A DNA stretch of 64,000 bases, taken from the NCBI RefSeq assembly GCF_012275515.1, contig NZ_JAAZQL010000008.1, positions 124,001 to 188,000 of the forward strand, read 5' to 3'. Each line of letters opens with the position of its first letter. Within the stretch, counting starts at the first letter, position 1. Source of the DNA: Novosphingobium sp. SG707. GTDB taxonomy: Bacteria; Pseudomonadota; Alphaproteobacteria; Sphingomonadales; Sphingomonadaceae. The notes below the pieces were generated by a model, which saw only the letters and a list, made by a program, of their open reading frames with translations, was not told the origin of the DNA and searched no databases. Shown one piece after another: positions 29,729 through 51,442 of this stretch. The translations under genes were made by a program, and so were the position numbers.

Positions 29729-30063
29729 TGGCACGCGCCGATCGTCTGGAGCGGCTGGAGGCCCAGCGCGAGGAGGCAGAGGCCGAGTATCGCGCGGCGC
29801 TGATCGCGGCGCTTCGGGTTACGGCGGCGGGTCAATGGGGCCTGTTCGATCATCAGCAGGACCGCCATGCGCGGGCGAAAGCCGCGCCGATGCTGGCCGA
29901 GCTGAACGATCTGGCCGAAACCATTGACGGTATGCGCGAAAAACTCGGCATGGAGGCGTTTGCGCTCCATGCCGAGTTTCTGGCCGCGCGCGGGCCGGTG
30001 CGGTCCGACGCGGTCGGAGAGCCCAAAAAGGCCGCCGCATGGTTGCAGCGGCTGGGCGCCTAA
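29728..30063 (+). CDS. Small helical protein of unknown function
   Basis: A 111-residue, charged, mostly helical protein. Residues 1-30 (ADRLERLEAQREEAEAEYRAAL) look like a short coiled coil, and KAAPMLAELNDLAETIDGMREKL forms a second helix. Its ATG overlaps the stop of the flavin enzyme (TGATG), so it is translated with it. I do not recognise the family. Its last 4 bases overlap the end of the convergent gene on the other strand. Confidence 0.72.
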   Translation: MARADRLERLEAQREEAEAEYRAALIAALRVTAAGQWGLFDHQQDRHARAKAAPMLAELNDLAETIDGMREKLGMEAFALHAEFLAARGPVRSDAVGEPKKAAAWLQRLGA

Positions 30064-30443
30064 CCCCAGCGGTTGATTTCCGGCTCCCTGCCCAGCGACC
30101 AGCGGAACAGGTGGTCGCGGGTGGAAATCGACGGCGGCAGGCGCCGGTCATCCTGACGGCGCATGCCCTGCAGGCGCAGGGCGAGCGACAGGGCGACATA
30201 ATCGCTGTGCCGGGTCAGGCCCTCCATGCGGCTGACGGCGGCGATCCGGCGCGGGTCGATGCGCCCCTGCGCCAGATCATGGCGCGACGGATTGTGCGAG
30301 GCAGCAGCAAAGGCGGCGCTTTCGGGAATGCGGCTGTCATAGATCAGCAGGGCAGGGGCGGAGGCGGCCAGCGCCGGTCGCGCCGCGATCAATCCGGCCG
30401 CGCCCGCGCCCTGCAACAGACGGCGGCGGGAGAGGCGCAGCAT
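30060..30443 (-). CDS. Small Tat-exported protein coupled to the phenol-oxidising flavocytochrome genes
   Basis: A 127-residue protein with a clear twin-arginine signal (LSRRRLLQGAGAAGLIAARPALA), mature from about residue 28. The mature part includes APALLIYDSRIPESAAFAAAS and RHDLAQGRIDPRRIAAVSR, then SDYVALSLALRLQGMRRQDD. I recognise no family. The start lies on the cytochrome c stop, so the three genes flavoprotein, cytochrome and this protein are one coupled operon; it may help assemble or anchor the periplasmic complex (inference). The frame extends upstream in the cytochrome gene, but the RR signal marks this ATG. Confidence 0.7.
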   Translation of the reverse strand: MLRLSRRRLLQGAGAAGLIAARPALAASAPALLIYDSRIPESAAFAAASHNPSRHDLAQGRIDPRRIAAVSRMEGLTRHSDYVALSLALRLQGMRRQDDRRLPPSISTRDHLFRWSLGREPEINRWG

Positions 30444-30862
30444 CACTTCTTCCCTCCCTTTGGCCCCGGCTTTTGCGCCAGATAGGCCGCCACCGCGTTC
30501 AATTCCGCATCGGTGAGGTCCACGCGGGTCTGGGCGGGCATCGCCCCCTTGCCGCCGCGCACCACCGCCTTGACGTAATCGGCGGTCAGATCCCGCCGAT
30601 TGGCCAGCAGGCCATCGGAGGGCGGGCGTTTCATCATCATCATCTGCTTGGTCAGCAGATTGCTGCCCATGCCGCCCGCCAGATGGCAATAGCCGCAGGA
30701 ATGCTCAAACACCGCCTTGGGGTCGCGTCCCGGTTGCAGGCGGTCGCCCGCAGGTTGGGCCGCGCGCATCTGATAGGGCGGCAATTCGGGGACGCCGCCC
30801 GGCGCGGCCGCCATGGCCGGGATCGGAGCGAGCAGCGCGAGGGCGATCAGGAACCGGCTCAT
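30443..30862 (-). CDS. Periplasmic class I cytochrome c, partner of the VAO/PCMH flavoprotein
   Basis: A 139-residue monohaem cytochrome c. It has a Sec signal (FLIALALLAPIPAMAAA), one haem site SCGYCHLAGG at about residues 55-59, and a late Met-containing loop KGAMPAQTRVDLTDAELNAVAAYL providing the sixth ligand. Such small cytochromes are the electron-accepting subunit of p-cresol methylhydroxylase and related flavocytochromes. The start overlaps the flavoprotein stop by 4 bases, which supports a flavocytochrome complex. The exported location of the cytochrome implies that the flavoprotein is carried out with it or acts at the membrane, since the flavoprotein has no signal of its own. Confidence 0.85.
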   Translation of the reverse strand: MSRFLIALALLAPIPAMAAAPGGVPELPPYQMRAAQPAGDRLQPGRDPKAVFEHSCGYCHLAGGMGSNLLTKQMMMMKRPPSDGLLANRRDLTADYVKAVVRGGKGAMPAQTRVDLTDAELNAVAAYLAQKPGPKGGKK

Positions 30863-32436
30863 TCCGCGCCCTCCTTCTGCAAGGCGCGATAGGCCGAGGG
30901 CCAGATGCCCTGTTTGCCCGGCGCAATGATGCCATTGGGGTCCAGCGCGTCCTTCACCTTTTCGCCAAAGCGGCGCAGCGCGTGGTCGTTGAAGTCGAAC
31001 GTGTCCATCACCCGGTCCATCCAGCCCAGATGGGTGCGATATTCGCCGTAACCGGCCTTGGCGGTCTCGGTGATAAGCGCGTTGAACAGTTTTTTCATAT
31101 TGTCGACCTGCGCCGCATTGTCGCGATCATACATCAGCATGTTGACATTGTTGGCAAAACGACCGCCGATGGTGAAGCTGGCATAGAAGTCCACATCGTG
31201 ATCGGCGATGATCTTGCGGCTGCGCTTCAACTGTCCCATCACATGTTCGGACGTGGCGGGCACCACCGGCGAGAAGCCCAGATGCGCCCCGCGGCCGCCC
31301 ACCCAGTCCGACATCTGCAACGGCACCGCCGAGGGTGTGCCCAGCGCCAGATCGAGCGGCGGCTTGGGATCGCCCTGACGCCACCACACCTCCATGGCCG
31401 GGGCGGCGAGGTGGCGCTTGAAGGCGGCCTTGATCACCTCGGCCTTGGCCTTGTTGACGCTCTCGTCGCCATAGAGGCGGATCGAGACGCGCCAGTAGCC
31501 AAGCTGATATTGCTTGAGCAATTCCTTGACGCGCCATTCGGGCATGGCGGTCGGTTTATCCCAGAAATCCTTGCGCGTGCCCAGCACGACGATCTTGCCC
31601 AGCCAACTGGGGATGAACACGTTCTGGTCGATCACGCCCGCGATTTTCAGCGGCGTCACCGTGTCGATGACCCAGCCGATGTCCTCCTCCTCGGGGATAT
31701 CCCAGGTCAGCTCAAGGCTGGTTTCAGGCGCGGGCTGCATCCACAGGCCCGCCTTGGTGACCACGCCAAGGTTCGACTGGCTGAAGGCCAAGTCCCAAGT
31801 CGGGCCGTAATTCATGGGGAAGAGGTGCCAGGCCGGATTGTCCTTCATCGCGCCCATGCCGGTGCGCAAAAGGTCGCCGTCGGGCAGCACCGCCTCGATC
31901 CCGCACAGGTTGCGCGCGTGCAACCCATAGGGCGTATAACCGATGCCGTGTTCGAGCGCATTGCCGATCACGCTGCCCCAGCCATTGCCGGGGACCGAGA
32001 GCCAAAGCGGCGCCTTTTGCCGCTCCACCTCGTCATGCAGGTCGAAAAAGCCCACGCCCGGTTCGACCACCGCATAGGCCAGCTTTGGATCGAGTTCGAG
32101 GATGCGGTTCATCCGCCCCAGATCCAGCACCACAGAGCCCGCCATGCGCGGCGCGGCGGTGCCATAGCCAAGGTTCTTGCCCCGCGCGACCGGCCAGAGC
32201 GGCACCTTGTATTCATTGGCGATGCGCACGATGGCGCGCACTTCCTCGACCGATGCGGGCGCGACGGCGGCCGATGCGGGCCAGCGCTCGGGCGAGCCGG
32301 GGGCATAGGCATCGGCATAGGCATCGCGGTCGGCATCGGATGACATCACCCATCCGGCTCCCACAACCCCGGCAAAAGCCTTGAGCGCGGCGTCAAAGGA
32401 TTGCGGGCCAACCCGCGGCGGCAGGGTCAGTTTCAC
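30859..32436 (-). CDS. VAO/PCMH-family FAD-dependent phenol oxidoreductase
   Basis: A 525-residue flavoprotein of the vanillyl-alcohol oxidase/p-cresol methylhydroxylase family, which oxidise para-alkylphenols at the benzylic carbon through a quinone methide. PP-loop FAD binding is in PLWPVARGKNLGYGTAAPR; SVPGNGWGSVIGNALEHGIGYTPYG and GEYRTHLGWMD are family blocks. By my recalled alignment with fungal VAO, phenolate-binding Tyr108, Tyr503 and Arg504 are all kept, and the covalent-flavin His422 matches GAHLGFSP, but Asp170 is Gly. GTG at 32436 chosen because GGAGAGGAAGAGG lies just upstream. Coupled with the cytochrome c gene, so probably a dehydrogenase. A perfect palindrome sits 24 bp upstream of the start. 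Confidence 0.88.
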   Translation of the reverse strand: MKLTLPPRVGPQSFDAALKAFAGVVGAGWVMSSDADRDAYADAYAPGSPERWPASAAVAPASVEEVRAIVRIANEYKVPLWPVARGKNLGYGTAAPRMAGSVVLDLGRMNRILELDPKLAYAVVEPGVGFFDLHDEVERQKAPLWLSVPGNGWGSVIGNALEHGIGYTPYGLHARNLCGIEAVLPDGDLLRTGMGAMKDNPAWHLFPMNYGPTWDLAFSQSNLGVVTKAGLWMQPAPETSLELTWDIPEEEDIGWVIDTVTPLKIAGVIDQNVFIPSWLGKIVVLGTRKDFWDKPTAMPEWRVKELLKQYQLGYWRVSIRLYGDESVNKAKAEVIKAAFKRHLAAPAMEVWWRQGDPKPPLDLALGTPSAVPLQMSDWVGGRGAHLGFSPVVPATSEHVMGQLKRSRKIIADHDVDFYASFTIGGRFANNVNMLMYDRDNAAQVDNMKKLFNALITETAKAGYGEYRTHLGWMDRVMDTFDFNDHALRRFGEKVKDALDPNGIIAPGKQGIWPSAYRALQKEGAE

Positions 32437-32459
32437 GGACCTCTTCCTCTCCAATTTTT

Positions 32460-32473: not shown

Positions 32474-32522
32474 GGATGATGCGCATCGCGCGTGCGCCTG
32501 TCAACCGGGAAAGTGACGCGCA

Positions 32523-32555: not shown

Positions 32556-32579
32556 AAAGTCGGGTCAAAAATGCGCAGT

Positions 32580-34967
32580 TCAGAACGACTTGCGTACCGA
32601 AATCGCCCATTCACGCGGACGGCCCACATTGCTGTAAACCGTGCCTGCCGAGGCATAGAGCGCCTGGAAGCGCAGCGGCAGATAGTAATATTTGTCAAAC
32701 AGGTTCGACACTTCAAAGCTGATCGCCAGATCCTGCTTGGGGTTCTTCCAGGTCAGGCGCGCATTGGCGAGCGCAAAGGCCGGGTTGTAATCCAGCGGGC
32801 TGGTCACGGTCAGGCGGCCGATCTGCTGCTTGCCGGTATAGACCAGGTCGAAACGCGGGGTCAGCGTGCCGTTGCTGCCGCCCAGATCGGCGGTGTACTG
32901 AATGCCCGCGCTGCCACGCCAGTTGGGCGAGGTGATCGGATCGGACAGTTTGATCGAGGTGACCTGCGCGCTGATCCGGTTCCATTCGCCATCGATCCAG
33001 CTCAGCGTGGCGTCGATGTTCAGGCCGTCAATCGGCGTGGCCGAAAGTTCGCCTTCAAGACCCCACATCTTGCCATCGCCCGCATTCTGAATGGCGGCGC
33101 AGGGATAGGGATCGGTGCCCGGCGCGAAGCCGTCGAGCAGCGAACAATCCGAGATCGGCAGCTGGATGTTCTTGTAGTCATTGACGAAACCGGCCAGGTT
33201 CAGGCGCAGACGACGGTCGAACAGATCGCTCTTGAGGCCCAGTTCATAAGAAGTGAGCGTTTCGGGGCGGAACGTGCCGTTGGTGGCCTGCGTCTTGGTG
33301 AACGGACGCGCCGTCACGCCGCCGCCCTTGAAGCCGGTGCTGACCGTGGCATAGGCCATCAGTTGCGGGCTGAAGCGATAGTCGGCCGAAATGCGCCAGT
33401 CGAGCTTGTTGCCGTCGTAATTAGCCACGCTGCCATTAAGCGCGCCCACGCCGAACGGATCAACCAGCGCGCCGCCCGACCAGTTCTGGCGGACAAAGGT
33501 GTAATCCTTGTGCTCGCTGGTATAGCGCAGGCCCGCCGTCACGTTGAGTTTGGAGGTGGGATGCAGGATCAGCGTGGCAAAACCGGCCTTGGAATTGGCC
33601 TTGACCGGATCGTTGCCCTGGAATTGCAGGTAGAAGCTGGGCACGTTCGGCACGATGTAGCGAATGTCCTGACGGGTGAAATAGACCGAGGTCTGGTCAT
33701 TGTAGAAACCGCCGATGGTCCATTCGGCCAGGCTGCCGATCTTGCCGTTCAGGCGCAGTTCCTGGCTGAAGAAGCGGAAGGTAAGGTCATTGTAACCGGC
33801 CCCGCCTATCGGCCCATAGGGGGTGAAATCGTCGTCGGTGCCAAAGGTCTGGTGATACTTGCGATAGGCGGTGATCGACTGGAGGTTGAGATTGTCGCTG
33901 AGCGTGTACTTCAGATTGCTCGACACGCCCCAGCCGGTGAACATCGTGTTCATCGGCATCGTATAGGCCTGCCCTGCCTGGCCGCCGGCGGGCATGTAGA
34001 AATTGGCATAGGTGCAGAAATTGCCGCAGCGGAAATCGACCCCGCCGGTCTTGGCCGTGTTGTCCACGGTCAGCACACTGGCGGCATTGCTGCGGTTTTC
34101 GTAGGTGTAATCGCCCGAAACGATCCAGTCGAGCTTGTCATTCGGGTTGTAGCGGATCGAGGCGCGCGCGCCGGTGTAATTCTTCTCGCCCAGCTTGCCG
34201 ATCACACAGCCCTTGCCGGTATTGGGATTGCCCGTGATGCCCAGCGAATTGCCGGGATTGGCGCAGCCATAGTCGATCATGTTCACATAGCCGTCCTGGC
34301 GCTTGTGAACGCCCGAAACGCGCACGAACAGCGAGTCAGTCAGCGCGAAATTCATGCTGCCGCGCAGGTCCAGACGGTTGCGCGCACCATAGGCAGCCTC
34401 GATATTGCCCGAATTTTCCGCGCTCGGCTTGGTCGAGAACATCTTGATCGCGCCGCCGATCGAGTTGCGCCCCGTCAGCGTGCCCTGCGGGCCGCGCAGC
34501 ACTTCAACCCGGTCGAGGTCGAGCAGATCCATCACCGAGCCGGTGAGCGAGGCATAGTAAACATCGTCGATATAGATGCCCACGCCCGGTTCATAGGCGG
34601 GGTTGAAGTCATATTGGCCCACGCCGCGGATATAGGCCGCCATCGAGGAGCCGAAAGCGCCGCCCATTTGCGTGAGCTGAACGTTGGGGGCCTGGGCGGC
34701 AATCTGGCTGATGTCGGTCTGGTTGCGCGACTTCAAAAGGTCGGAGGTTACCGCCGTGATCGAAAGCGGCGTGTCCTGCAGCTTTTGCGAACGGAACTGG
34801 GCCGTCACCACGATTTCCTTCAGCCCATGCTCTGCGGCATCGGCGGGCGGAGCGTCAGCGGCTTCGGCGGCGAAGGCGGGCGCGGCGCTCAGCGCACAGG
34901 CCATCGCCGTGGTGGCAACCGCCTGAACCAGGCGCGCGCGAGTAAAGATGCCAATAGTCCTGGCCAT
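32580..34967 (-). CDS. TonB-dependent receptor 1
   Basis: Outer-membrane active transporter, 795 residues. A signal peptide (about residues 1-33, ending APAFA) is followed by the plug: EIVVTAQFRSQKLQDTPLSI (TonB-box-like start, about 48-67), YIRGVGQYDF, and VEVLRGPQGTLTGRNSIGGAI, then a 22-strand barrel ending SVRKSF with terminal Phe. It is the sphingomonad receptor type linked to aromatic and plant-derived compounds rather than siderophores (inference). AGGAGAGG precedes the ATG at 34967. The plug is very similar to that of receptor 2 at 48932. No FecR/sigma pair is near, so control is probably by the MarR gene that diverges from it. Confidence 0.93.
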   Translation of the reverse strand: MARTIGIFTRARLVQAVATTAMACALSAAPAFAAEAADAPPADAAEHGLKEIVVTAQFRSQKLQDTPLSITAVTSDLLKSRNQTDISQIAAQAPNVQLTQMGGAFGSSMAAYIRGVGQYDFNPAYEPGVGIYIDDVYYASLTGSVMDLLDLDRVEVLRGPQGTLTGRNSIGGAIKMFSTKPSAENSGNIEAAYGARNRLDLRGSMNFALTDSLFVRVSGVHKRQDGYVNMIDYGCANPGNSLGITGNPNTGKGCVIGKLGEKNYTGARASIRYNPNDKLDWIVSGDYTYENRSNAASVLTVDNTAKTGGVDFRCGNFCTYANFYMPAGGQAGQAYTMPMNTMFTGWGVSSNLKYTLSDNLNLQSITAYRKYHQTFGTDDDFTPYGPIGGAGYNDLTFRFFSQELRLNGKIGSLAEWTIGGFYNDQTSVYFTRQDIRYIVPNVPSFYLQFQGNDPVKANSKAGFATLILHPTSKLNVTAGLRYTSEHKDYTFVRQNWSGGALVDPFGVGALNGSVANYDGNKLDWRISADYRFSPQLMAYATVSTGFKGGGVTARPFTKTQATNGTFRPETLTSYELGLKSDLFDRRLRLNLAGFVNDYKNIQLPISDCSLLDGFAPGTDPYPCAAIQNAGDGKMWGLEGELSATPIDGLNIDATLSWIDGEWNRISAQVTSIKLSDPITSPNWRGSAGIQYTADLGGSNGTLTPRFDLVYTGKQQIGRLTVTSPLDYNPAFALANARLTWKNPKQDLAISFEVSNLFDKYYYLPLRFQALYASAGTVYSNVGRPREWAISVRKSF

Positions 34968-35000
34968 GATTCCCTCTCCTATATCGGGCTGTTTCAGCCC

Positions 35001-35012
35001 TGACGTTTGTGA
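35001..35012. promoter_or_regulatory. Operator-like site before TonB receptor 1
   Basis: TGACGTTTGTGA, 34 bp upstream of the receptor ATG, fits TNAC-N4-GTNA with the other cluster sites and is nearly the same as the 51502 site before receptor 2. Confidence 0.5.
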
Positions 35013-35100
35013 GTGATACATACGATTTTCAACTTGGCAAGCAGGCTTGGGGGTTTTTCTTGGGCGCGGCCTGCTTGATAGGGTTACTGATGCGAAAAGG

Positions 35101-35118: not shown

Positions 35119-35170
35119 AAAGGGGAAAAAACTTGCCTTTCGCTCCCCGGATGTGGTTAGTTTCACCACC

Positions 35171-35704
35171 ATGAACAGCAGTAACAGCATGCCCGCTTCC
35201 CCGCCCGAAGACGCCTCCCCTGAACCGGGTGCCGCCCCAGCCGAAGACGGTCTGACCGACCTGCTGATCAGCCTGCTCAAATTGTGCAGCCTGATCGGCG
35301 ATCCGATGAAGGTCGGGGTATGCGATCCCTTCGCCGCTTCCACCAACGAGGTGAAGGTGTTGATGGCGCTGGCCGGTGAAGGACCGCTGGCCGGGCATGA
35401 TCTGGTGCATATTACCGCCATGTCTGCGATGAATGTCAGCCGGGCAATCGCGGGGTGCAAGGCGCGCGGCTGGGTGGAGGATTTCAACGACCCGGAAAAC
35501 CGCCGCCGCCGCCCGGTGCGCCTGACCGAGGATGGCGAGGCGACCTATCGCCGGATGCAGCCGATGCTGCACGGCGTGGCCGAAAGCCTGCTGGGCAAAC
35601 TGACGGTGAGGCAGCGGCGGGAAATGGGCCATTTGACCGATCTGGTTCTGCGCCGCATCGCCGAATGGGAAGCGGCGCAGCCTCAGGATCAGGCCGGTTC
35701 CTGA
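35171..35704 (+). CDS. MarR-family transcriptional regulator
   Basis: A 177-residue winged-helix regulator. Residues about 60-140 hold the MarR fold: STNEVKVLMALAGEGPLAGHDLV, the recognition helix AMSAMNVSRAIAGCKARGWVED and the wing DPENRRRRPVRLTEDGEATY. The N-terminal 25 residues are a Pro/Ser-rich extension. The ATG at 35171 is preferred to GTG 35153. It diverges from TonB receptor 1 and is the only regulator in the 21-kb island, so it is the obvious candidate to bind the TNAC-N4-GTNA palindromes. MarR proteins usually repress and release DNA on binding phenolic ligands. Its last 16 bases overlap the convergent NTF2 gene. Confidence 0.9.
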   Translation: MNSSNSMPASPPEDASPEPGAAPAEDGLTDLLISLLKLCSLIGDPMKVGVCDPFAASTNEVKVLMALAGEGPLAGHDLVHITAMSAMNVSRAIAGCKARGWVEDFNDPENRRRRPVRLTEDGEATYRRMQPMLHGVAESLLGKLTVRQRREMGHLTDLVLRRIAEWEAAQPQDQAGS

Positions 35705-36390
35705 ACCTGTCCGGCGAGCAGGGCGCCGAAACGCGGATGGGCAAAATGCATCGGCACATCATGGCGATGGGGCCAAGTCTGGCGCAATTCGGCGGTGCGA
35801 ATTTCGTCCGGGCCGATGGGGTTGGCCGGATAGCATTCGGTCAGCGGCTGAAGATGCGCGGTGGTCTTTGACCAGCCGGCTTCATAATCGCCCTGCCACT
35901 GCATCATGTAATCGAGGCGCTTGATCTTCCAGACGCCATTTTCCTTAACGTAATCATTCTCATAGATGCCTGCCTCCATAAATTGCAGCGGCAGGCCCTG
36001 CGGCTTGAACTCGCGGCTTTCATGGCTGCCGCCAAACAGCATGCCGCGGAAGCGGCCCTTGGCGGTCTGGCCATCGGGGGCGATGGTGATGATGTCCTGC
36101 ATCTGGAAATGGTCGAGCAGGAAGCCATAGGCGGGGCCTTCCTCGCCGGGCGCAAGGAACAAAGATTTGAACCATGTGCCATAAAGACGATAGGCGCCCT
36201 CGCGGCCCTTGTAGATCCCCGAAAGAAAGATAACCTCGCCGTCTTCGGCAAAGAGATTGGCTACATCTTCGGCCCGGTTGAAGTCGATATAGTAACCATA
36301 GGCCCAATGCAGGCGGCGGATCGCGTTGATATCCTCCAGCTCCTGCACGCGCCGCTCCAGCGCGGCCAGACGGGCGTCTGTATCTGCCAT
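35689..36390 (-). CDS. NTF2/SnoaL-like protein A (233 aa)
   Basis: A 233-residue cytoplasmic protein with a leading heptad helix (ARLAALERRVQELEDINAIRRL) and a SnoaL_4-type alpha+beta cone: WAYGYYIDFNRAEDVANLFAEDGEVIFLSGIYKGREGAYRLY, then APDGQTAKGRFRGML and YENDYVKENGVWKIKRLDYMMQW. This superfamily includes cofactor-free lyases, isomerases and cyclases; the sphingomonad diarylpropane lyase LdpA, which makes lignostilbene, belongs to it. Given the lignostilbene-dioxygenase-like gene at 46306, a lyase role is attractive but inferred. Divergent from the SDR gene at 36479, with a shared 88-bp control region. Confidence 0.82.
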   Translation of the reverse strand: MADTDARLAALERRVQELEDINAIRRLHWAYGYYIDFNRAEDVANLFAEDGEVIFLSGIYKGREGAYRLYGTWFKSLFLAPGEEGPAYGFLLDHFQMQDIITIAPDGQTAKGRFRGMLFGGSHESREFKPQGLPLQFMEAGIYENDYVKENGVWKIKRLDYMMQWQGDYEAGWSKTTAHLQPLTECYPANPIGPDEIRTAELRQTWPHRHDVPMHFAHPRFGALLAGQVQEPA

Positions 36391-36443
36391 GTCACTCTCC
36401 CATATTGCCAGCCCGATTCCTTGGGGCTATTTGTATGCTATAC

Positions 36444-36450
36444 TAACAAT
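36444..36450. promoter_or_regulatory. Half-site TAACAAT between NTF2 protein A and SDR 1
   Basis: TAACAAT matches one half of the 32460 palindrome; the flanking GTAT-GCT-ATAC is a small inverted repeat. It lies in the middle of an 88-bp divergent promoter region. Confidence 0.35.
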
Positions 36451-36478
36451 CATAATGCTCTTGGCGAGAGGAAAATGC

Positions 36479-37408
36479 ATGGGCGAGGAAACGAAAGACT
36501 GGGCAGGCCGGGTGGCCTTTATCAGCGGCGGCGTATCCGGGCTGGGCTTTGGCATCGCGCGGGCCTTTGCGCTGGCGGGGATGCGTCTGGCGCTGTCCTG
36601 GCGCAACGAGGATTACCGCAGCAAAGCCGCAGCATGGTTTGCGCAAAACGGTCTGGAGGAGCCATTGTGGGTGCGCCTCGACGTGACCGACCGCGAGGGA
36701 TTTGCCCGCGCCGCAGCGCAGGTCGAAGAGCATTTCGGCGCGGTGCATGTGGTGGTCAACAATGCGGGCGTCTCGGTCTTCGGCAATACCGCCGAGGCAT
36801 CCTATGACGATTACGACTGGATCATGGGGGTCAACTTTGGCGGCGTCGTCAATGGTGTGGTCTCCTTCCTGCCCGCGCTGCGCCGCGCCACCGGCCGCCG
36901 CCATGTCGTCAACATCGCCAGCATGGCCGCCTATCTCTCCGGCCCTCAGGCGGGGATCTACACCGCCAGCAAATTCGCGGTCCGTGGTCTGACCGAAAGC
37001 TTGCGCTATAATCTGGTGCCGCTGGGCATCGGCTGCTCGCTGGTCTGCCCGGCGCTGGTCGCGACCAACGCATGGGATTCCGCCTTTCGCCGCCCGGCCG
37101 AATTTGCCGACAGCGGCTTTGGCGAGGTGAACCGCGGCGCGCTCGAACATTTCGGCAAGGTCTTCTCGGCTGGCATGGATCCGCTCGAAGCTGGGCAGCG
37201 CATCCTGTCCGGCATGAGCGAGGGGAAGGGCCTGATCTTTACCCACCCGGAATTCGCCGAGGATTTCAAGGCGATCTATGAGGATAGTCTGGCTGCTCTG
37301 CCATCGGATGAAGCTCCCCCTGAACGGCTGGAGGTCGAGCGGATGCGGCGGGCGGCGAACAAGGCGGCGCTGGAGGGGCGGGAGATTACGATTGCGGATT
37401 TGAATTAA
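36479..37408 (+). CDS. Short-chain dehydrogenase/reductase 1
   Basis: A 309-residue SDR. The cofactor loop is SGGVSGLGFGIARAFALAG (GxxxGxG); the NNAG motif is VVNNAGVSVFG; the catalytic Ser and Tyr-x-x-x-Lys are in VVNIASMAAYLSGPQAGIYTASKFAVRG. A C-terminal extension of about 60 residues (LEVERMRRAANKAALEGRE) is longer than in classical SDRs. GAGAGGA lies just before the ATG at 36479. In the island it may oxidise or reduce a side-chain alcohol or ketone. Repeat copy C follows. Confidence 0.88.
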   Translation: MGEETKDWAGRVAFISGGVSGLGFGIARAFALAGMRLALSWRNEDYRSKAAAWFAQNGLEEPLWVRLDVTDREGFARAAAQVEEHFGAVHVVVNNAGVSVFGNTAEASYDDYDWIMGVNFGGVVNGVVSFLPALRRATGRRHVVNIASMAAYLSGPQAGIYTASKFAVRGLTESLRYNLVPLGIGCSLVCPALVATNAWDSAFRRPAEFADSGFGEVNRGALEHFGKVFSAGMDPLEAGQRILSGMSEGKGLIFTHPEFAEDFKAIYEDSLAALPSDEAPPERLEVERMRRAANKAALEGREITIADLN

Positions 37409-42055: not shown

Positions 42056-42118
42056 CAATAGCCATTGCGCGGACAGGCATGTTCATCGCGCAAAAACAAC
42101 AGGCAGGGGAGAGAGATG

Positions 42119-43858: not shown

Positions 43859-45349
43859 TTAAAGCGCCGATGGCATCCCATCGAGCAGGATGGTCTTCAA
43901 TTCCGTATAACCCAGCAGCCCCTCGATCCCGCCTTCGCGGCCAAGGCCCGATTGCTTGAAGCCGCCAAAGGGCAGGCCGAAATCCATGCGGAGCCCGTTT
44001 TGTCCGACCGCGCCCGTGCGCACCGCCCGCGCGATGCGATAGGCCGCATCGACATCCTGCGTCAGCACCGAACCATTGAGGCCGAAGCTGGAATCATTGG
44101 CGATGCGGATGGCGTCGGCCTCATCCTCATAGGGGATCAGTGCCAGAACCGGGCCGAAGATTTCCTCCTGCGCAATACGGCTGGCATTGTCGACATTGGC
44201 AAACAGGGTTGGCTCGATGAAATAGCCCTTGGGCAGATGCGCCGGACGGGCGCCGCCATGGACCAATTGCGCGCTGCGTTTGCCTTCCTCGATATAGCTC
44301 TCGATCCGCTCCAACTGCCGCTTCATCGCTACCGGGCCAAGCTGGGTCGTCGGATCGTCGCTGTGGCCGATCTTCACTTGCGCCATTTCGGCGGCAATCG
44401 CGGCGGCCAGTTCGTCATGGCGCGCCTTGCTCACCAGTACGCGGCTCAGCATCGCGCAGACCTGTCCGCTCATCATGCAGATGGTTCCGGCAAAGATCTT
44501 CGCCGCCACCTCAATGGGGAAATCGTCCAGCACAATCGCCGCCGATTTGCCGCCCAGTTCCAGCGTGCAGCGCGCAATCCGCTCGCCGCAGACCTGCGCG
44601 ATGCGTTTGCCCGCCACGGTCGATCCGGTGAAGCTGACCTTGTCCACGCCCGGATTGCAGATGAGATGATCCGACGCCTCGCGGTGGCCCGTCACCAGAT
44701 TGACCACGCCTGCGGGCACGCCCGCCTCCTGCGCCGCCTCGGCGATGATATAGGCCTCCAGCGGGGTTTCGGGACTGGGCTTCATAATCACGCAGCACCC
44801 GGCGGCCAGCGCATAGGCCACCTTGTTGAGCATGATGCCATAGGGCCCGTTCCATGGCGTAATCGCGGCCACCACGCCCACCGGCTCATAGGCGACCAGC
44901 CCCACCGCCGCGCCCACCGTGGGGCGCTTTTCGACCCAGTCGAACCCTTCGGCCATGGCGATGATGCCGTCGAACGTGGCATTCGATCCGCCCTGCATGA
45001 TGCCGGAAAAGCTGGCGAGGCCACCCATCTGCATCGACCATGCCCGCGCCGTTTCGCCAACGCGCGCGTGCAGGATCGCGGACATGCGCTTCATCACCGC
45101 GAAGCGTTCACCCGGCTGCATCCGGGGCCATGGGCCATGGTCAAAGGCATGGCGCGCAGCGGCGACGGCGGCATCCATATCCGCCTCATCGGCCTCGGCC
45201 ACGGCGGAGACCACTTCTTCGGTATCGGGGCTGATCTGTTCGATCATGCGACCCGAATGGGCGGCCACCCACGCGCCGCCGATGAACAGGCGGTCCTTAT
45301 GGGCAATATTGGGTTCAACCGGGGTAATCTGGGGGAAGGGGGCGTTCAT
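43859..45349 (-). CDS. NAD(P)-dependent aldehyde dehydrogenase
   Basis: A 496-residue ALDH superfamily enzyme. Motifs in order: ITPWNGPYGIMLNKVAYALAAG for cofactor binding, VSFTGSTVAGKRIAQ, the catalytic Glu in CTLELGGKSAAIV, the catalytic Cys in SGQVCAMLSRVLV, and EEIFGPVLALIPYEDEADAI. Residues before the Cys (MM instead of the usual hydrophilic pair) are slightly unusual. It likely oxidises the aromatic aldehyde released by the carotenoid-oxygenase-like dioxygenase in the same operon. Its start overlaps the NmrA gene stop by 4 bases. Confidence 0.94.
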   Translation of the reverse strand: MNAPFPQITPVEPNIAHKDRLFIGGAWVAAHSGRMIEQISPDTEEVVSAVAEADEADMDAAVAAARHAFDHGPWPRMQPGERFAVMKRMSAILHARVGETARAWSMQMGGLASFSGIMQGGSNATFDGIIAMAEGFDWVEKRPTVGAAVGLVAYEPVGVVAAITPWNGPYGIMLNKVAYALAAGCCVIMKPSPETPLEAYIIAEAAQEAGVPAGVVNLVTGHREASDHLICNPGVDKVSFTGSTVAGKRIAQVCGERIARCTLELGGKSAAIVLDDFPIEVAAKIFAGTICMMSGQVCAMLSRVLVSKARHDELAAAIAAEMAQVKIGHSDDPTTQLGPVAMKRQLERIESYIEEGKRSAQLVHGGARPAHLPKGYFIEPTLFANVDNASRIAQEEIFGPVLALIPYEDEADAIRIANDSSFGLNGSVLTQDVDAAYRIARAVRTGAVGQNGLRMDFGLPFGGFKQSGLGREGGIEGLLGYTELKTILLDGMPSAL

Positions 45350-46302
45350 TTCGCATGTTCCATCGGTTGGGCGGCCGCGCGCAGCATGTCTGCATGGGCC
45401 TCGATCAGGCTGCGCACGCTGCGGGCCGGGCGGCCGGTGAGTTTTTCAACGTCATCGCTGCAAATGGCCAGAAAGCCCTCGCGGATCGCGGCGCCGAATG
45501 TCACCATGTCGTCGCTGTTCCACGGGATGCCGTTGACGCTTTGGTCGTCGACCGGGCGGCGCGGGATGCCCATCGCGTCAAAGATCGCATATTGCGCCTC
45601 GTCCGAGACGGGTGTGTAGGCCAGCGGCACGCCGGTGACCTGCGAGAGGATCGCGGTCACTTCGGCAAAGCTCTGCAACTCCGGCCCGGTGATGTTGTAG
45701 ATCCGGCCCGCATGGTCGCGCGTTCCGGTGGTAATATCGCGCAACACCGCCACCGCGCTTTCCACGCAATCCTCGCGCCAGACCATCGCCTCGCGCCCGT
45801 CGCCCGCGTTCGAGATCCATTGGCCGCTGCTCATCACGCCGGGCCCGGCCATCACGATCATCGCATCGGCATAATGCGCATCGCGCAGCATGGTCCAGTC
45901 CATGCCGCTCTCGCGGATCAGGCGCTCGGTTTCGATGTGATCGTGGCGCACCTCGGCGGGGTTGGCCGGATCGTCGATGCCGATGAAGCTGGTGTAGAGG
46001 ATATGGCGAACCCCCTGCGCGGCGGCGGCATCAATCGCGGCCTTGTGCTGAGCCACGCGTGCGCCCACCCGCGTGCCGGAAATCAGCAGCATGGTGTCCG
46101 CCCCCGCCACCGCATCGCCCAGCGTTTCGGGCCGGTCGAAATCGCCATAGCGGATGGCGGCGCCCTGAGCCTCGCGGTCGGCCAGTTTGGCGGGGGTGCG
46201 GGAGATCAATACCAGCTGATCCCCCAGACCCGCCGCGATCAGCCGGTCGGTGACGCCGCGACCATATTGGCCGCTGGCGCCGGTGATAACGATCCGGCCC
46301 AT
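45346..46302 (-). CDS. NmrA-like NAD(P)-binding reductase
   Basis: A 318-residue atypical SDR of the NmrA/QorB type: IVITGASGQYGRGVTDRL (GxxGxxG), ADTMLLISGTRVGARVAQHKAAIDAA, then the substrate domain with YNITGPELQSFAEVTAILSQVTGVPLAY. Relatives reduce quinones, and the sphingomonad pinoresinol reductase PinZ is also NmrA-like, so a lignan- or quinone-type substrate is plausible but unproven. The usual active-site Tyr-Lys pair of classical SDRs is not evident. It is coupled to the aldehyde dehydrogenase gene (4-bp overlap) and follows the dioxygenase by 3 bp. Confidence 0.85.
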   Translation of the reverse strand: MGRIVITGASGQYGRGVTDRLIAAGLGDQLVLISRTPAKLADREAQGAAIRYGDFDRPETLGDAVAGADTMLLISGTRVGARVAQHKAAIDAAAAQGVRHILYTSFIGIDDPANPAEVRHDHIETERLIRESGMDWTMLRDAHYADAMIVMAGPGVMSSGQWISNAGDGREAMVWREDCVESAVAVLRDITTGTRDHAGRIYNITGPELQSFAEVTAILSQVTGVPLAYTPVSDEAQYAIFDAMGIPRRPVDDQSVNGIPWNSDDMVTFGAAIREGFLAICSDDVEKLTGRPARSVRSLIEAHADMLRAAAQPMEHAK

Positions 46303-46305: not shown

Positions 46306-47820
46306 TTAAACTGCCGCGTCCAGAGCGCCCTGCGGCACCCACCAGCCATGGACCTGCGGTCGCAGGCGGGCGGGGATGGCGACCTTAGCCACAGGGCCTT
46401 TGTGCAGCGCGCCCGCATCCAGCACCCATGCGGCATGTTCGAACTGGTTATCGCCGGTCTGATGATCGACGATGGTGACGATATAGCCCAGATGGTCGGG
46501 ATCATTCGACGGCACATGGACCGGCTCGTTCAGGCTCCACCCCACCGGCAGCGCCAGCGCATCGAGCACCTGACCGGCCGCGCCCGCGACATCGAGGCGG
46601 ATGATCGTGTTGAACATCGCCCCCACCGGACCACCGGCCAGCGGCGGCCCCTTCATCTGCGGGTCCATGGTCAGCATCCAGCCATAGGGGTTGGGCCGCC
46701 CCTGCATCTGCGCCGGGATCAGGGGGAAATCACCCGGAGGCCCGACCACGCTTTGCGTCACGTCTGTCGCGTCGCCCTTGGGGGCCACGCTCCAGCGGGT
46801 CAGCGCGCCTTGCACCTCCCACGGGGCCATATGGATGCCCGAAGCCTCGCGGATGAAGGGGAAGGCGTTGGTGTTCGACAGGCACTGGTCGAAATGGATG
46901 ATGCCGTTGGCATCTTCAAAGGCGTTCATGAAGTGATAGGCCGAAACCCCCTTCGGTCCCTTGAACCAGCGCATGTCCGAGACATTGCCATAGCGCGGCA
47001 TGATGCCCAGCCAGCTGTCGGTTTCCTGTTCATGCACCCAGTGATCGCCGCCCGCTTTCAGGCGTTCGAGCGAACAGGTGGTGGGATAGATCGGGAACAG
47101 CGCGTAATTTTCGGTGATCGCGAAATCATGCATCATCGCGCAATAAGGCGCATCGAACCACTGCTCGCTGGTCAGATGGCCGTCCTTGTCGACGATCAGA
47201 TAGGCGATCTTGGTGCTGGCCTCGCCATCGGCCTCATAGCCATAGAGGAACATCTCGCCGGTCGCGGCATCGATGCGGACATGGGCGGTGACGGTCTTTG
47301 ATTTCAATTTGCCGCCAAAGTCATAGGAGCCGAGCGTTTCCAGCGTGATCGGGTCCATGCGATAGGGGCGGCCATCCTCCTTGGTCATCAGCAGACGTCC
47401 GGCGTGCCACACCGGCGTGGTGTTGGCCACGGTGCGATCAACGCCCGCCACATCGGCATCGTCGGTGAAGGGGTTGCGATAGCGGCCAAAGCGGGCATGG
47501 CCTTTTTCTTCCTCGGCCAGCCAGCGCGCGGTGCGGACATAGCGGATCGCGTAATCGACGGTGTTGTCGGCGTTGAAGGAAACGCGGCTGATCATGCCGT
47601 CGCCCGAGAGCACATTGTCGTCATCGAACTTGGGCGCGAAATGCGGGTCGGGCACGGCGCGATAGAAGCTGCCCAGCACCTCGGGGGGCAGGGTGCCTTC
47701 GACCTTCAGGCCCGTGAGCGTAAGTTCCTGTCCGACCGGCTGATTAAGGCCGATAAAATGCGGCGTTTGCGGGAATTGCCTTGCGTTTGCGGGCGCGTCG
47801 GCCCCTGCGATTGTTGCCAT
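46306..47820 (-). CDS. Carotenoid oxygenase family protein, lignostilbene-dioxygenase-like
   Basis: A 504-residue seven-bladed propeller dioxygenase. The four iron His are H180 (VTAHVRID), H231 (MMHDFAIT), H296 (AYHFMNAFED) and H491 (QVHGWWVP). Tyr114 and Lys147 are 33 residues apart, and Lys147 is 33 before H180, the same spacing as the Tyr101/Lys134/His167 set recalled for the stilbene cleaver NOV1, which binds the 4-hydroxyl of the substrate. The NOV1 Phe59 position seems to be Leu or Ser here. ATG at 47820 follows GTGAGG; a GTG 3 codons earlier is an alternative. Likely cleaves a hydroxystilbene to two aldehydes; the aldehyde dehydrogenase is downstream. Confidence 0.9.
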   Translation of the reverse strand: MATIAGADAPANARQFPQTPHFIGLNQPVGQELTLTGLKVEGTLPPEVLGSFYRAVPDPHFAPKFDDDNVLSGDGMISRVSFNADNTVDYAIRYVRTARWLAEEEKGHARFGRYRNPFTDDADVAGVDRTVANTTPVWHAGRLLMTKEDGRPYRMDPITLETLGSYDFGGKLKSKTVTAHVRIDAATGEMFLYGYEADGEASTKIAYLIVDKDGHLTSEQWFDAPYCAMMHDFAITENYALFPIYPTTCSLERLKAGGDHWVHEQETDSWLGIMPRYGNVSDMRWFKGPKGVSAYHFMNAFEDANGIIHFDQCLSNTNAFPFIREASGIHMAPWEVQGALTRWSVAPKGDATDVTQSVVGPPGDFPLIPAQMQGRPNPYGWMLTMDPQMKGPPLAGGPVGAMFNTIIRLDVAGAAGQVLDALALPVGWSLNEPVHVPSNDPDHLGYIVTIVDHQTGDNQFEHAAWVLDAGALHKGPVAKVAIPARLRPQVHGWWVPQGALDAAV

Positions 47821-47839
47821 GATCCTCACCTTTTTATCG

Positions 47840-48014: not shown

Positions 48015-48890
48015 ATGTGCGACGAACTCACCATCGCCGATGACGATGCCAATGCCGCCACGCGCGGCCTATCGCGCCGCCAGTTTGCCGCCGTGAGCGC
48101 AGCAGGCGCCGCCGCCGCCATGGCCGGGGCGCAGCAGGCGATTGCCGCAGGCGCGGCGCTCAAAGAAAACGCGGTGGCCATCACCACGCCCGATGGGCAA
48201 TGCGACGCTTTCTTTGTCCACCCCGCCACCGGCAAGCATCCGGGCATTATCGTGTGGCCCGACATTGCCGGTTCGCGCGACGCCTATAAGGTGATGGCGC
48301 GCCGTCTGGCCTCCGATGGCTATGCGGTCCTGCTGGTCAACCACTACTATCGCACGGCCAAGGCGCCGCTGCTGAACAGCCTTGCCGAATGGCGCACCCC
48401 GGCGGGCGGCGAGAAGCTGAAGCCCGCCATCGCCGCGATCACCACGCCGGGCATCATCAGCGATGCCAAGGCTTTCGTGGGCTGGCTGGACAAGCAGGCG
48501 GCGGTGGATACCAAGCGCAAGATCGGCTCGGCGGGCTATTGCATGACGGGCGGCTATACCGTGCGCACGGCGGCCGCCAATCCCGACCGCGTGACGGCCT
48601 GCGCCAGTTTCCACGGCGGCGGACTGGTGGGCGATGCGGCCGACAGTCCGAACAAGCTGATCGGGGCGACCAAGGCGGGCTTCCTCTTTGCCATCGCCAA
48701 GAATGACGATGCGCGCAGCCCCGGCGACAAGGATGCGCTCAAAGCCGCCGCTGCGTCCGCCGGGCGTCCGGCCGAGGTCGAAGTGTACAATGCCGATCAT
48801 GGTTGGTGCACGCTGGACGCGCCATCCTATGACAAGGGCGAGGCGGACCGCGCCTATGCCCGCCAACTCGCGCTTTTCGCCAAGCTGTAA
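48015..48890 (+). CDS. Tat-exported dienelactone-hydrolase-like protein
   Basis: A 291-residue alpha/beta hydrolase of the dienelactone hydrolase family. The first 45 residues contain LSRRQFAAVSAAGAAAAMAGA, a Tat signal preceded by an unusually long acidic start (CDELTIADDDANAATRG). The nucleophile Cys is in GSAGYCMTGGYTV and the acid/base His in YNADHGWCTLD; the Asp is probably in AIAKNDDARSP. AGGAG precedes the ATG at 48015. Dienelactone hydrolases are normally cytoplasmic, so export suggests it acts on a periplasmic ester or lactone. Divergent from the dioxygenase. Confidence 0.85.
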   Translation: MCDELTIADDDANAATRGLSRRQFAAVSAAGAAAAMAGAQQAIAAGAALKENAVAITTPDGQCDAFFVHPATGKHPGIIVWPDIAGSRDAYKVMARRLASDGYAVLLVNHYYRTAKAPLLNSLAEWRTPAGGEKLKPAIAAITTPGIISDAKAFVGWLDKQAAVDTKRKIGSAGYCMTGGYTVRTAAANPDRVTACASFHGGGLVGDAADSPNKLIGATKAGFLFAIAKNDDARSPGDKDALKAAAASAGRPAEVEVYNADHGWCTLDAPSYDKGEADRAYARQLALFAKL

Positions 48891-48893: not shown

Positions 48894-48924
48894 GAAAGGG
48901 GGAGGTTTTCGGCCTCCCCCTTTC
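48894..48924. terminator. Bidirectional terminator between hydrolase and TonB receptor 2
   Basis: A perfect 12-bp stem GAAAGGGGGAGG / CCTCCCCCTTTC with loop TTTTCGG, between the two convergent genes. Confidence 0.82.
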
Positions 48925-48931
48925 CCATCCT

Positions 48932-51442
48932 TTAGAAGTCCTTCTTCAGCGTCACCGCCCATGTCCGCGGCAGGCCGGGCGCGCCCGACACGGTGCCGAT
49001 CGACACGTAATTCGCGGTCATCGAGGTGAAGTAGTATTTGTTGAAGATGTTGCGCACCTCGACGCTGGCGGTCCAGCCATCGGCGGCGCTCTTCCATGTG
49101 ATCCGGCCATTGCCCAGAAAATAGCCGTTGATCCGGTTGGTCGCCACCTGCGTCGCCAGCGATCCGCCGCCGCCATTGGTGGCCGTGCTGGTGGAAACCA
49201 CGGCGCTGTCGACATTGGTGGGGTCGACATAGATGTGCGACTGGTAATTGCCATCGGCGCGCAGCGACAGCGTGCCCTTCAGGACATCGGGGATGTCATA
49301 TTGCACGCCCGCGTTCCACTTCCACTGGGGCGTGTAGGGCGGAACCATGCTGGCGGTCACGCCGGTGCTGGCCGTGTCCACGGTGGTATATTTGAAATCG
49401 AGATAGGACAGCGAAGCATCGAAGGTCAGCCCGGCGGTCGGGCGGATCATCGTTTCGATTTCAATGCCCTTCACATGGGCCGAGCCGACATTCTTGGGTT
49501 GCAGGCAAGGCGTCGAGGGGAAGCCCAGATTGTTGGGGCAATTCAGAACGGTCAGGATGATGTTCTTGTAATCATTATAGAAGGCCGACACGTTGAAGCG
49601 CAGCTTGCGATCAAACAGGTCGGTCTTGAAGCCCGCCTCATAGGCCACGATGGTTTCGGGCTGGAAGGACTGGGCCTGGTTGATATAGAAGGGACGCGGA
49701 TTGACGCCGCCCGCGCGATAGCCGGTCGAAACCTGAGCATAGACCATCAGTTCGGGGCTGAAGCGATAGTCGCCCGCGATGCGCCAGTCGGTGCGCTGCT
49801 TTTCGAAATGGGCGTTGAGGCCGTTCAGAGCGGCAATCGCGCAATTCGCAGGCTGGCCCACGGTAAAGGGATAGCCGGTGCAGGGCAGGATCGTCGAACC
49901 ATCGGGATTATGCCGCGAATAGGTGTAATCCTTGGTGTCCCAACTGGCGCGCACGCCGCCCGTGATGGTCAGCGCCTCGGTCAGCTTGCCCGAGACATTG
50001 GCGAAAACCGCCTTGTTGGTGGCAGGCGTCGTGTCCGGTCCGTGCAGGAAGTCGATGCCTGCATAGTTGAGGTCGATGCGCCCGGTATAGGTGCCCTTGG
50101 CATGGAAATAGAAGCCGCCCACCGTGTAATCCAGACGACGGTTGAGCGCCTTGCCGGACAGGCGGATTTCCTCGCTCCACTGGGTATTGGCCTGCGCCTG
50201 CTCCAGCATCGAGGGCTGGACCGGGGCGCCTTCGGCAAAGGCCCATGAGGAAGTGTAATGGCGATAGGCGCTGATCGATTTGAGCGCCAGATCCTCGGCG
50301 ATCGTCCAGTCGATGGTCCCGGCAAAGCCATAATTGTCGAGGTTCGAATGCGGGTTCAGCGTCAGCGGCTTGTAAGGCATCTGGCTGTCGGATGCGGCAT
50401 TGTCGAAGAAGGTGGCATAGGAAACATAGCGCCCGTCATAGCCTGCGGGCACCGTGTCGCAGCTGTTCACGCCGCTGGCGACAAAGGCGCAGTTCAAGGG
50501 AATCGGGGCGCCATTGGTGCCGCGCAGCCATGGGCGGGCGGGCGACTTGCTGACGGGCGAACCGGCGAATTGCGCGATGGAATTGCCATAGATCAGCACG
50601 GTCGCGCCCGGCTCGTCGCGCTGGCGGGTGTAATCGCCCGAGACATTGACCTCGACATTGCTGGCCGGTTGCCAACGCAGCGCGACCTTGCCCGCGGTAA
50701 AGCTGGTGCCGCCCAGCGTGCCCAGCACCGGACTGTCGCCGGTGGCCTGCGTGGGCACATTCGATCCGGGGTGGGTCTTGGCGTAATCCAGCCGCTTGAC
50801 ATAGCCGTCGCGGTTCTTGGTCGCGCCCGACACGCGCAGGAACAGATTGTCGGCCAGTTTCAGGTCGAAAAAGCCGCGCATGTCGATGCGGTTGAACGAG
50901 CCGTAGGTGCCTTCGACCATGCCCTTGCCATTGCCCTGCGGCTTGACCGAATAGAGCTTGATCGAACCGCCCAGCGAGTTGCGCCCGGAAAGCGTGCCCT
51001 GCGGCCCGCGCAGCACTTCAACCCGGTCAAGGTCCATCAGGTCGAGCAGCGAGCCGGTGAGGGTGGGCAGGTAAACGTCATCGATATACATGCCCACGCC
51101 CGGTTCGAGCGCGAAATTGGGGTCTGTCTGCCCCACGCCGCGGATAAAGGCGATGATGCCCGGCCCGAGATAGGCGTTTTGCGGGGTCAGCGTGACATTG
51201 GGCGTTTGCGCGGCCACTTCGGCCACATTGGTCTGTCCGCGCGCGGCCAGCGAGGCCCCGGTCATGGCCGTGATGGCCAGCGGCGTGTCCTGCAGCTTCT
51301 GGCTGCGGAATTGCGCGGTGACAACGATTTCGCCTGTGGTAACGTCCTTTTTGGGCTGCTCGGTTTGAGCATGGACGGTGGTGGCGGTTGCGATCATCGC
51401 AACGCAGGCGCCAGACAGGTAAAGCCCCCGAATACCGATCAT
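48932..51442 (-). CDS. TonB-dependent receptor 2
   Basis: An 836-residue outer-membrane receptor: signal peptide (about 1-24, ending TTVHA), plug with EIVVTAQFRSQKLQDTPLAI, FIRGVGQTDPNFALEPG and VEVLRGPQGTLSGRNSLGGSI, then the barrel ending TLKKDF with terminal Phe. The plug is nearly the same as that of receptor 1, while the barrel differs, so they probably import related but different substrates. GAGG precedes the ATG at 51442. It closes the catabolic island; the site TCGCGTTTGTGA at 51502 is close to the one before receptor 1. Confidence 0.93.
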   Translation of the reverse strand: MIGIRGLYLSGACVAMIATATTVHAQTEQPKKDVTTGEIVVTAQFRSQKLQDTPLAITAMTGASLAARGQTNVAEVAAQTPNVTLTPQNAYLGPGIIAFIRGVGQTDPNFALEPGVGMYIDDVYLPTLTGSLLDLMDLDRVEVLRGPQGTLSGRNSLGGSIKLYSVKPQGNGKGMVEGTYGSFNRIDMRGFFDLKLADNLFLRVSGATKNRDGYVKRLDYAKTHPGSNVPTQATGDSPVLGTLGGTSFTAGKVALRWQPASNVEVNVSGDYTRQRDEPGATVLIYGNSIAQFAGSPVSKSPARPWLRGTNGAPIPLNCAFVASGVNSCDTVPAGYDGRYVSYATFFDNAASDSQMPYKPLTLNPHSNLDNYGFAGTIDWTIAEDLALKSISAYRHYTSSWAFAEGAPVQPSMLEQAQANTQWSEEIRLSGKALNRRLDYTVGGFYFHAKGTYTGRIDLNYAGIDFLHGPDTTPATNKAVFANVSGKLTEALTITGGVRASWDTKDYTYSRHNPDGSTILPCTGYPFTVGQPANCAIAALNGLNAHFEKQRTDWRIAGDYRFSPELMVYAQVSTGYRAGGVNPRPFYINQAQSFQPETIVAYEAGFKTDLFDRKLRFNVSAFYNDYKNIILTVLNCPNNLGFPSTPCLQPKNVGSAHVKGIEIETMIRPTAGLTFDASLSYLDFKYTTVDTASTGVTASMVPPYTPQWKWNAGVQYDIPDVLKGTLSLRADGNYQSHIYVDPTNVDSAVVSTSTATNGGGGSLATQVATNRINGYFLGNGRITWKSAADGWTASVEVRNIFNKYYFTSMTANYVSIGTVSGAPGLPRTWAVTLKKDF

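Follow-up and report, generated by a model that had tools for sequence, protein, structure and literature searches.

The closest described relative of the gene cluster considered here is the pin cluster of Novosphingobium rhizosphaerae LY, published in mBio in September 2025 (PMC12607616; papers are cited throughout from the portions of their text available), where gene functions were assigned from randomly barcoded transposon sequencing (RB-TnSeq), deletions and metabolites. In LY, PinZ converts pinoresinol to lariciresinol, PinY (a GMC oxidase, 39% identical to PhcC) oxidises the lariciresinol, PinX (a DUF3237 protein, 38-42% identical to PhcF/G) takes lariciresinoate to imperanene by decarboxylation, the flavocytochrome PinVW leads on to diguaiacylbutadiene with loss of formaldehyde, and PinU, related to lignostilbene dioxygenases, cleaves diguaiacylbutadiene to vanillin and coniferaldehyde (PMC12607616). 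A homologue of this pinUZXWV cluster lies at about 30060-51481 of a 64,000-nucleotide stretch ("the window") from the 5.64 Mb genome of Novosphingobium sp. SG707, whose closest named relative in the search made is Novosphingobium sediminicola (strain DSM 27057; dioxygenase 97% identical). An initial annotation of the window had recognized an island for phenolic dimers here and considered its mix of genes not to be a described cluster, a view that the LY publication overturns.

Other described routes resemble the island in part. It shares with the beta-1 pathway of N. aromaticivorans F199 and SYK-6 (LdpA, LdpB/C, LsdA/NOV2; PMC12997858) an LdpA-like protein, a NOV2-type dioxygenase and an SDR at the LdpB position; in F199, however, ldpA, pinZ and NOV2 lie at Saro_2805-2809 and pinVWX at Saro_2875-2877 (PMC12997858), whereas the LdpA-like gene of the island lies inside a full pin cluster. 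The PinAB route of Pseudomonas sp. SG-MS2 likewise employs a VAO/PCMH flavocytochrome acting on a lignan, but starts on pinoresinol itself (PMC12997858), while the island has PinZ-like and PinX-like proteins, as LY does. The beta-5 phenylcoumaran route of SYK-6 (PhcCD-PhcFG-lignostilbene dioxygenase) follows the same logic of side-chain acid, decarboxylase and lignostilbene dioxygenase; the island differs from it in having a PinZ-like reductase and no GMC oxidase.

The LY paper names N. capsulatum as bearer of a syntenic cluster (PMC12607616), and the N. capsulatum locus (L064, L065) has all five pin-type genes and almost the whole accessory set of the window; of the SnoaL_2-like pair, one gene had no separate match. 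Its order matches the LY tags given in PMC12997858 (00370 pinV to 00450 pinZ, 00455 pinU and 00470 ligC), with the CmcJ gene followed by an oxidoreductase in the ligC position, LigB and LigA. The island has the same five pin genes as LY, 60-87% identical to the N. capsulatum copies. It also shares with LY the accessory aldehyde dehydrogenase, LdpA-like protein, SDR, TonB receptors, MarR, CmcJ and PQQ genes, a likeness drawn through N. capsulatum and the locus tags rather than from the LY sequence. In contrast to LY, its order is rearranged, with receptor 1, MarR, the LdpA-like gene, SDRa and CmcJ between pinW and pinX, and no ring-cleavage genes adjoin it. The initial annotation had likewise seen no ring-cleavage gene in the island; adjacent LigA and LigB genes lie about 108 kb before it on the same contig (G000:C8:45240-46488).

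Gene identity, homology, linkage and catalytic residues have been established here, and we hold with considerable confidence, judging from sequence, that the island is a catabolic cluster of the LY pin type for resinol lignans and lignin dimers. This pathway class is assigned because of homology to the experimentally studied pinZ, pinU, pinX, pinW and pinV for resinol lignans (PMC12607616) and to LdpA for diarylpropanes. By analogy, the cluster very likely yields vanillin-type molecules from pinoresinol-type plant lignans and from related lignin fragments with two rings. What is new is how widespread and conserved it is, together with its conserved genes lacking an assigned role, above all a CmcJ-type oxygenase; the shared beta-1 and beta-beta content and a leucine-for-phenylalanine change in the dioxygenase are of further interest. 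An unnamed island can now be read as a testable lignan pathway.

Proposed enzymes for resinols and diarylpropanes

Gene families were assigned through Pfam and NCBIfam scans, and refined gene models added genes (Table 1). All the gene types named in the initial annotation were recovered: two TonB receptors, a flavocytochrome, a dehydrogenase containing pyrroloquinoline quinone (PQQ) and haem, NTF2-like proteins of the LdpA fold, a lignostilbene-dioxygenase-like enzyme, an aldehyde dehydrogenase, an NmrA reductase likened to pinoresinol reductase and a MarR regulator, the last with matches under Pfam's own cut-offs. The genes it had missed encode the DUF3237 protein, the CmcJ/NvfI-family oxygenase, two SDRs, the dienelactone-hydrolase-like protein and the small third protein of the pinW-pinV operon.

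The PinZ-like and PinU-like genes are directly adjacent, with 3 bp between them. Nine of the ten cofactor-site residues of NrPinZ (PMC12817470) are identical at the same numbers in the PinZ-like protein (G8, S10, G11, G14, R35, K39, S75, G76 and Y144), while T34 is replaced by S34. The flavoprotein gene overlaps by 4 bases the gene for a c-type cytochrome that carries CGYCH and matches cytochrome families, and the term flavocytochrome was therefore apt. The nearest solved relatives of this PinW-like flavoprotein are of the VAO/eugenol-oxidase type; with oxidases as the best of these, it was at first taken for a possible cytochrome-free oxidase, a reading dropped when the overlapping cytochrome gene was found. 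In its GAHLGFSP motif, H391 is presumably the residue linking the flavin adenine dinucleotide. Homologues of the small third operon gene (30060-30443) are found in 15 loci, two of which are the same stretch; they adjoin the cytochrome gene in the loci whose positions were compared, and N. capsulatum has one.

The PinU-like dioxygenase keeps the four histidine ligands H183, H234, H299 and H494 as well as the phenol-binding Y117 and K150. Its score of 857.6 bits on the NOV2 model (NF053780, cut-off 650) compares with 158.5 bits on an apocarotenoid model (cut-off 675), and with the phenol-binding tyrosine and lysine kept, a role in steroid, terpene or carotenoid catabolism was rejected and seems to us scarcely credible: SnoaL and ketosteroid-isomerase-like folds, SDRs and a carotenoid-oxygenase-family protein do also occur in such pathways, but the PinZ-, PinX- and LdpA-like assignments indicate phenolic dimers. 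For two other members of the dioxygenase family in the same genome, it is the classical lignostilbene model, NF053778, whose cut-off is exceeded. The cut-off of NF053780, an equivalog model named NOV2, is also exceeded by the N. capsulatum PinU-type protein (844 bits) and by a protein of the more distant sister group described below; since the model accepts all these proteins, automatic annotation will probably name all of them NOV2.

The LdpA-like protein is 70% identical to NaLdpA (8abt) and 68% to SpLdpA (8abv and 8abw), with Z scores of 28.4-29.1 for its predicted structure (mean predicted local distance difference test score 81), and 69% identical to 8abu (H97Q), with Z 26.9; the next-best fold reaches Z 16.7, far below the LdpA entries. 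The entries matched are titled SpLdpA with erythro-DGPD, and NaLdpA. H94 of the window protein corresponds to the histidine mutated in 8abu and is invariant in 24/24 aligned rows. Given this 68-70% identity of one NTF2-like protein to crystallised LdpA, the key beta-1 step is likewise encoded in the island. SDRa corresponds in position, by gene order, to R9J51_00440, a listed ldpB homologue (PMC12997858). One might then suppose that the island serves beta-1 diarylpropane and stilbene breakdown only, through LdpA and NOV2, its pin-like genes having drifted to other substrates: LdpA is the structurally best-supported single enzyme, NOV2 is described as cleaving the stilbene that LdpA makes in N. 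aromaticivorans, and the island has no PinY. We consider this improbable, however, as the PinX-like and PinW-like proteins have no place in a beta-1 route, yet accompany PinU in 55/57 and 53/57 genomes, respectively (see below).

Returning to a cluster for both resinols and lignin dimers, each reaction of the two routes is drawn by analogy from papers on relatives. On the beta-beta side, the PinZ-like reductase, using reduced nicotinamide adenine dinucleotide phosphate, would form lariciresinol by opening one of the furan rings of pinoresinol or syringaresinol; the island's PQQ-haem dehydrogenase, a GMC oxidase encoded elsewhere, or both would oxidise the primary alcohol to the acid; the PinX-like protein would decarboxylate lariciresinoate and open the second ring to give imperanene; the PinWV-like flavocytochrome would make a quinone methide that loses formaldehyde to yield diguaiacylbutadiene; and the PinU-like iron dioxygenase would cleave this to vanillin and coniferaldehyde, with aldehyde dehydrogenases and 4,5-cleavage genes elsewhere completing the breakdown. 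On the beta-1 side, the LdpA-like lyase would convert erythro-diguaiacylpropanediol (DGPD) to formaldehyde and lignostilbene, which the PinU-like enzyme or another lignostilbene dioxygenase would split into two vanillin molecules; the SDR at the LdpB position may provide the erythro isomer. The initial annotation had proposed a pathway to two aromatic acids. The phenolic-dimer class stands, by homology to the pin genes and LdpA, but the direct products are expected to be the aldehydes vanillin and coniferaldehyde (PMC12607616), which aldehyde dehydrogenases can carry further. From this arrangement, beta-1 and beta-beta dimers seem to be broken down through a single island and perhaps a single dioxygenase, a point of relevance to lignin valorisation.

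Several points weigh against this assignment. No PinY-type GMC gene lies within the island, and deletion of pinY abolished growth of LY on pinoresinol (PMC12607616); the genome has nine GMC-family matches, among which a PinY may lie. N. aromaticivorans has homologues of pinZ, pinX, pinW, pinV and NOV2 (PMC12997858) and does not grow on pinoresinol (PMC12607616), so that gene content does not prove phenotype. No putative transporter gave a fitness effect in LY (PMC12607616), and the TonB receptors may thus be dispensable for pinoresinol. Oxidases give the flavoprotein higher scores than p-cresol methylhydroxylase does. In the PinU-like dioxygenase, L74 stands where LSD4 has Phe-59, the residue stacking on the guaiacyl ring (PMC8191317), and may leave space for a longer substrate; leucine is found there in 66/66 aligned rows with an identity of 60% or more and in 3/3 rows of 50-60%, and phenylalanine in 4/7 rows below 50%, these rows including overlapping loci and hence representing fewer independent sequences. 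Finally, LY is described as having no other known dimer pathways (PMC12607616), and the available portions of published work on LY-type clusters leave the beta-1 route untried.

Occurrence and linkage in Novosphingobium

The survey covered 195 genomes of the genus, incomplete ones included (149/195 reach a completeness of 90% or more with contamination of 5% or less); the E-value and identity cut-offs for orthologues were our own choice, and the counts include partial matches and two genes with in-frame TGA codons (PinU-like in G116, PinW-like in G193). PinX-like proteins were found in 69/195 genomes (E 1e-58), PinU-like in 65/195 (E 1e-180; 57 of them at 62% identity or more), PinW-like in 58/195 (E 1e-180), LdpA-like in 67/195 (E 1e-85) and CmcJ-like in 61/195 (E 1e-70). 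The 57 genomes with PinU at the higher identity nearly always have the others as well: PinX in 55/57, LdpA and CmcJ each in 54/57, PinW in 53/57. Without such a PinU, PinX is still present in 14 genomes and LdpA in 13. All five occur together in 49/195 genomes and none in 123/195, more than chance would give, the genomes being related and hence not independent; Fisher p-values for the co-occurrence assume such independence and are not read as probabilities.

Of the 53 genomes having PinU, PinX and PinW, 20 (20/195 of the genus) have all three inside a 25-kb stretch of a single contig; in the remaining ones the genes are about 30-76 kb or more apart, or on separate contigs, with 68-69 kb separating PinX and PinU in N. 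taihuense. In each of the 50 genomes where CmcJ and PinU are found on one contig, the two are no more than 12 kb apart. Nine full loci were examined, those of N. capsulatum, N. arvoryzae, N. sediminis, N. fuchskuhlense, strain B 225, N. sediminicola, SG751A, N. umbonatum and Chakrabartia godavariana, a non-random sample because they were chosen partly for having PinX near PinU. All nine carry PinV-, PinW-, PinX-, PinZ-, PinU-, LdpA- and CmcJ-like genes, and also the PQQ, tandem NTF2, aldehyde dehydrogenase, receptor 1, MarR and SDRa genes, and in each the MarR-like gene is flanked by those for receptor 1 and the LdpA-like protein. Outside the N. capsulatum/N. pokkalii/N. rhizosphaerae group, the LY paper describes no more than fragments (PMC12607616). 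The cluster had thus been published as a whole only in a narrow clade; finding it whole in several other named species gives the full cluster a wider distribution than that paper states.

Twelve genomes have a dioxygenase of a second group that is more distant (55-58% identity). It lies no more than 14 kb from a PinX-like gene in 10/12, and PinW-like genes at the chosen cut-off are missing in 10/12. One such locus, a sister cluster (L085, G111:C34:25001-45000), has a second dioxygenase of the NOV2 model (53% identical to that of the window) with PinX-like (72%), tandem NTF2 (59%) and aldehyde dehydrogenase (67%) proteins, several SnoaL-like genes and a flavoprotein only distantly related (44%); it perhaps represents a different dimer pathway.

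In the metagenome-assembled genome (MAG) of Novosphingobium sp. SCN 66-18 (L086, G105:C7; L034), the segment corresponding to 28619-36390 of the window encodes a flavoprotein 100%, a cytochrome 99%, a receptor 1 90-94% and an LdpA-like protein 86% identical to those of the window, with PinZ at 73% and PinU at 70% on the same contig. Such a mosaic points to a recent transfer of the segment, unless the bin, listed with 6% contamination, is chimeric. A Cellvibrionales MAG in a gammaproteobacterial bin (L054) has PinU (54%), PinZ (57%), PinX (59%), flavoprotein (45%) and PQQ (52%) homologues, from which the pathway may reach beyond the Sphingomonadales.

Gene list and accessory genes

Table 1. Genes of the island, with amino acid identity to the N. 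capsulatum counterpart
Feature	Position	Strand	Identity (%)	Remarks
Small protein, 127 amino acids, signal-like N-terminus	30060..30443	-		Third gene of pinW-pinV operon; ATG overlaps cytochrome gene stop
c-type cytochrome, PinV-like, flavoprotein partner	30443..30862	-	60	CGYCH at 30697; PF13442 54.7 bits
VAO/PCMH flavoprotein, PinW-like (putative imperanene oxidase)	30859..32454	-	79	PF01565 + PF02913
TonB-dependent receptor 1	32580..35021	-	76	PF00593 + PF07715
MarR-like regulator	35153..35704	+	36	Weak MarR matches
LdpA-like diarylpropane gamma-formaldehyde lyase, NTF2/SnoaL_4 fold	35689..36390	-	67	Identity and structure match to crystallised LdpAs
SDRa, LdpB candidate by position only	36326..37408	+	62	PF00106; true start probably downstream of listed TTG
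CmcJ/NvfI-family oxygenase, probably Fe(II)/2-oxoglutarate	37611..38402	-	58	NF041278 262.5 bits (cut-off 80)
DUF3237 protein, PinX-like (putative lariciresinoate decarboxylase)	38414..38911	-	87	PF11578 128.9 bits
PQQ alcohol dehydrogenase, C-terminal haem c domain; candidate side-chain alcohol oxidase	38924..41122	-	74	PF01011 225.5 bits, PF13442; CAICH at 39202
NTF2-like protein, 288 amino acids, probably two such domains in tandem	41098..41964	-	82	Without Pfam family match
SnoaL_2-like protein a	42116..42508	+		PF12680 (on longer open reading frame)
SnoaL_2-like protein b, signal-like N-terminus	42524..43003	+		PF12680
SDRb	43018..43773	+		PF13561 218 bits
Aldehyde dehydrogenase	43859..45349	-	70	PF00171 477 bits; position matches R9J51_00415 (listed desV homologue; PMC12997858)
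NmrA-like reductase, PinZ-like (putative pinoresinol reductase)	45346..46302	-	70	PF13460, PF05368
Lignostilbene-type dioxygenase, PinU/NOV2-like	46306..47829	-	69	NF053780 857.6 bits (cut-off 650)
Dienelactone-hydrolase-like protein, signal-like N-terminus	48015..48890	+	55	PF01738 99.8 bits; adjoins PinZ in N. capsulatum
TonB-dependent receptor 2	48932..51481	-	74	PF00593 + PF07715

The CmcJ-type oxygenase, the PQQ dehydrogenase, the tandem NTF2 protein and the two TonB receptors are conserved genes without a role in the published genetics, as far as its available text goes. The main text of PMC12607616 contains neither "PQQ" nor "TonB" nor any word starting with "oxygenase", PMC12710314 has no passage on the gene types of the island, and the literature searched yielded no paper bringing CmcJ and lignan together. 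The profile of the CmcJ-like protein matches the 2-oxoglutarate dioxygenase 7eus (3e-32) and NvfI 7de2 (8e-27). Its H121, D123 and H204 are invariant in 20/20 rows, and the HxD aligns with both 7eus and NvfI; at the place of H204 there is a histidine in 7eus and not in NvfI in that alignment. The N-terminal half of the tandem NTF2 protein has the NTF2/ketosteroid-isomerase fold (best Z 12.9), and the C-terminal half modelled poorly, giving no usable fold.

Judged from gene position, the LY counterparts of the PQQ dehydrogenase and the tandem NTF2 protein would be R9J51_00390 and R9J51_00395, and these would then be the two non-essential genes with fitness effects that lie upstream of pinX (PMC12607616). 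One possibility is that the PQQ dehydrogenase acts in place of PinY, though it is probably insufficient alone, since LY, by locus-tag order, has one and yet needs PinY.

These genes lead to a refinement of the pin-type assignment rather than its opposite, namely that the main substrate is another lignan or resinol-like compound (e.g. syringaresinol, or a methylenedioxy or extra-oxygenated one), for which the CmcJ-type oxygenase, PQQ dehydrogenase, tandem NTF2 protein and hydrolase provide needed steps that growth of LY on pinoresinol would hide. Their genes are retained beside the pin genes, only six genes in LY are essential for pinoresinol, with two genes upstream of pinX giving fitness effects yet being non-essential (PMC12607616), and the PinZ of N. 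aromaticivorans has higher activity with syringaresinol (PMC12817470). Against this, the accessory genes may have side functions, and the LY transposon library missed some genes (PMC12607616); we regard the refinement as possible but on balance doubtful. A more speculative idea, put forward tentatively and rather unlikely as a whole, is that the island works as a conserved funnel with two purposes, where a single NOV2/PinU-type dioxygenase would serve both beta-beta and beta-1 dimers and the CmcJ-type oxygenase would perform an undescribed oxidation that widens the range of lignans (e.g. O-demethylation, opening of a methylenedioxy bridge or hydroxylation).

Two further loci of the SG707 genome contain related genes. 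At 9317-14359 of L088 (G000:C1:562001-582000), a DUF3237 gene is followed by two GMC oxidoreductase genes, which are among the nine GMC-family matches; this looks like a separate set for acid formation and decarboxylation with the logic of PhcCD/PhcFG or PinY/PinX. In L089 (G000:C1:790001-810000), genes for a classical lignostilbene dioxygenase and a cytochrome c accompany those for two VAO-type flavoproteins, and a GMC gene lies close by.

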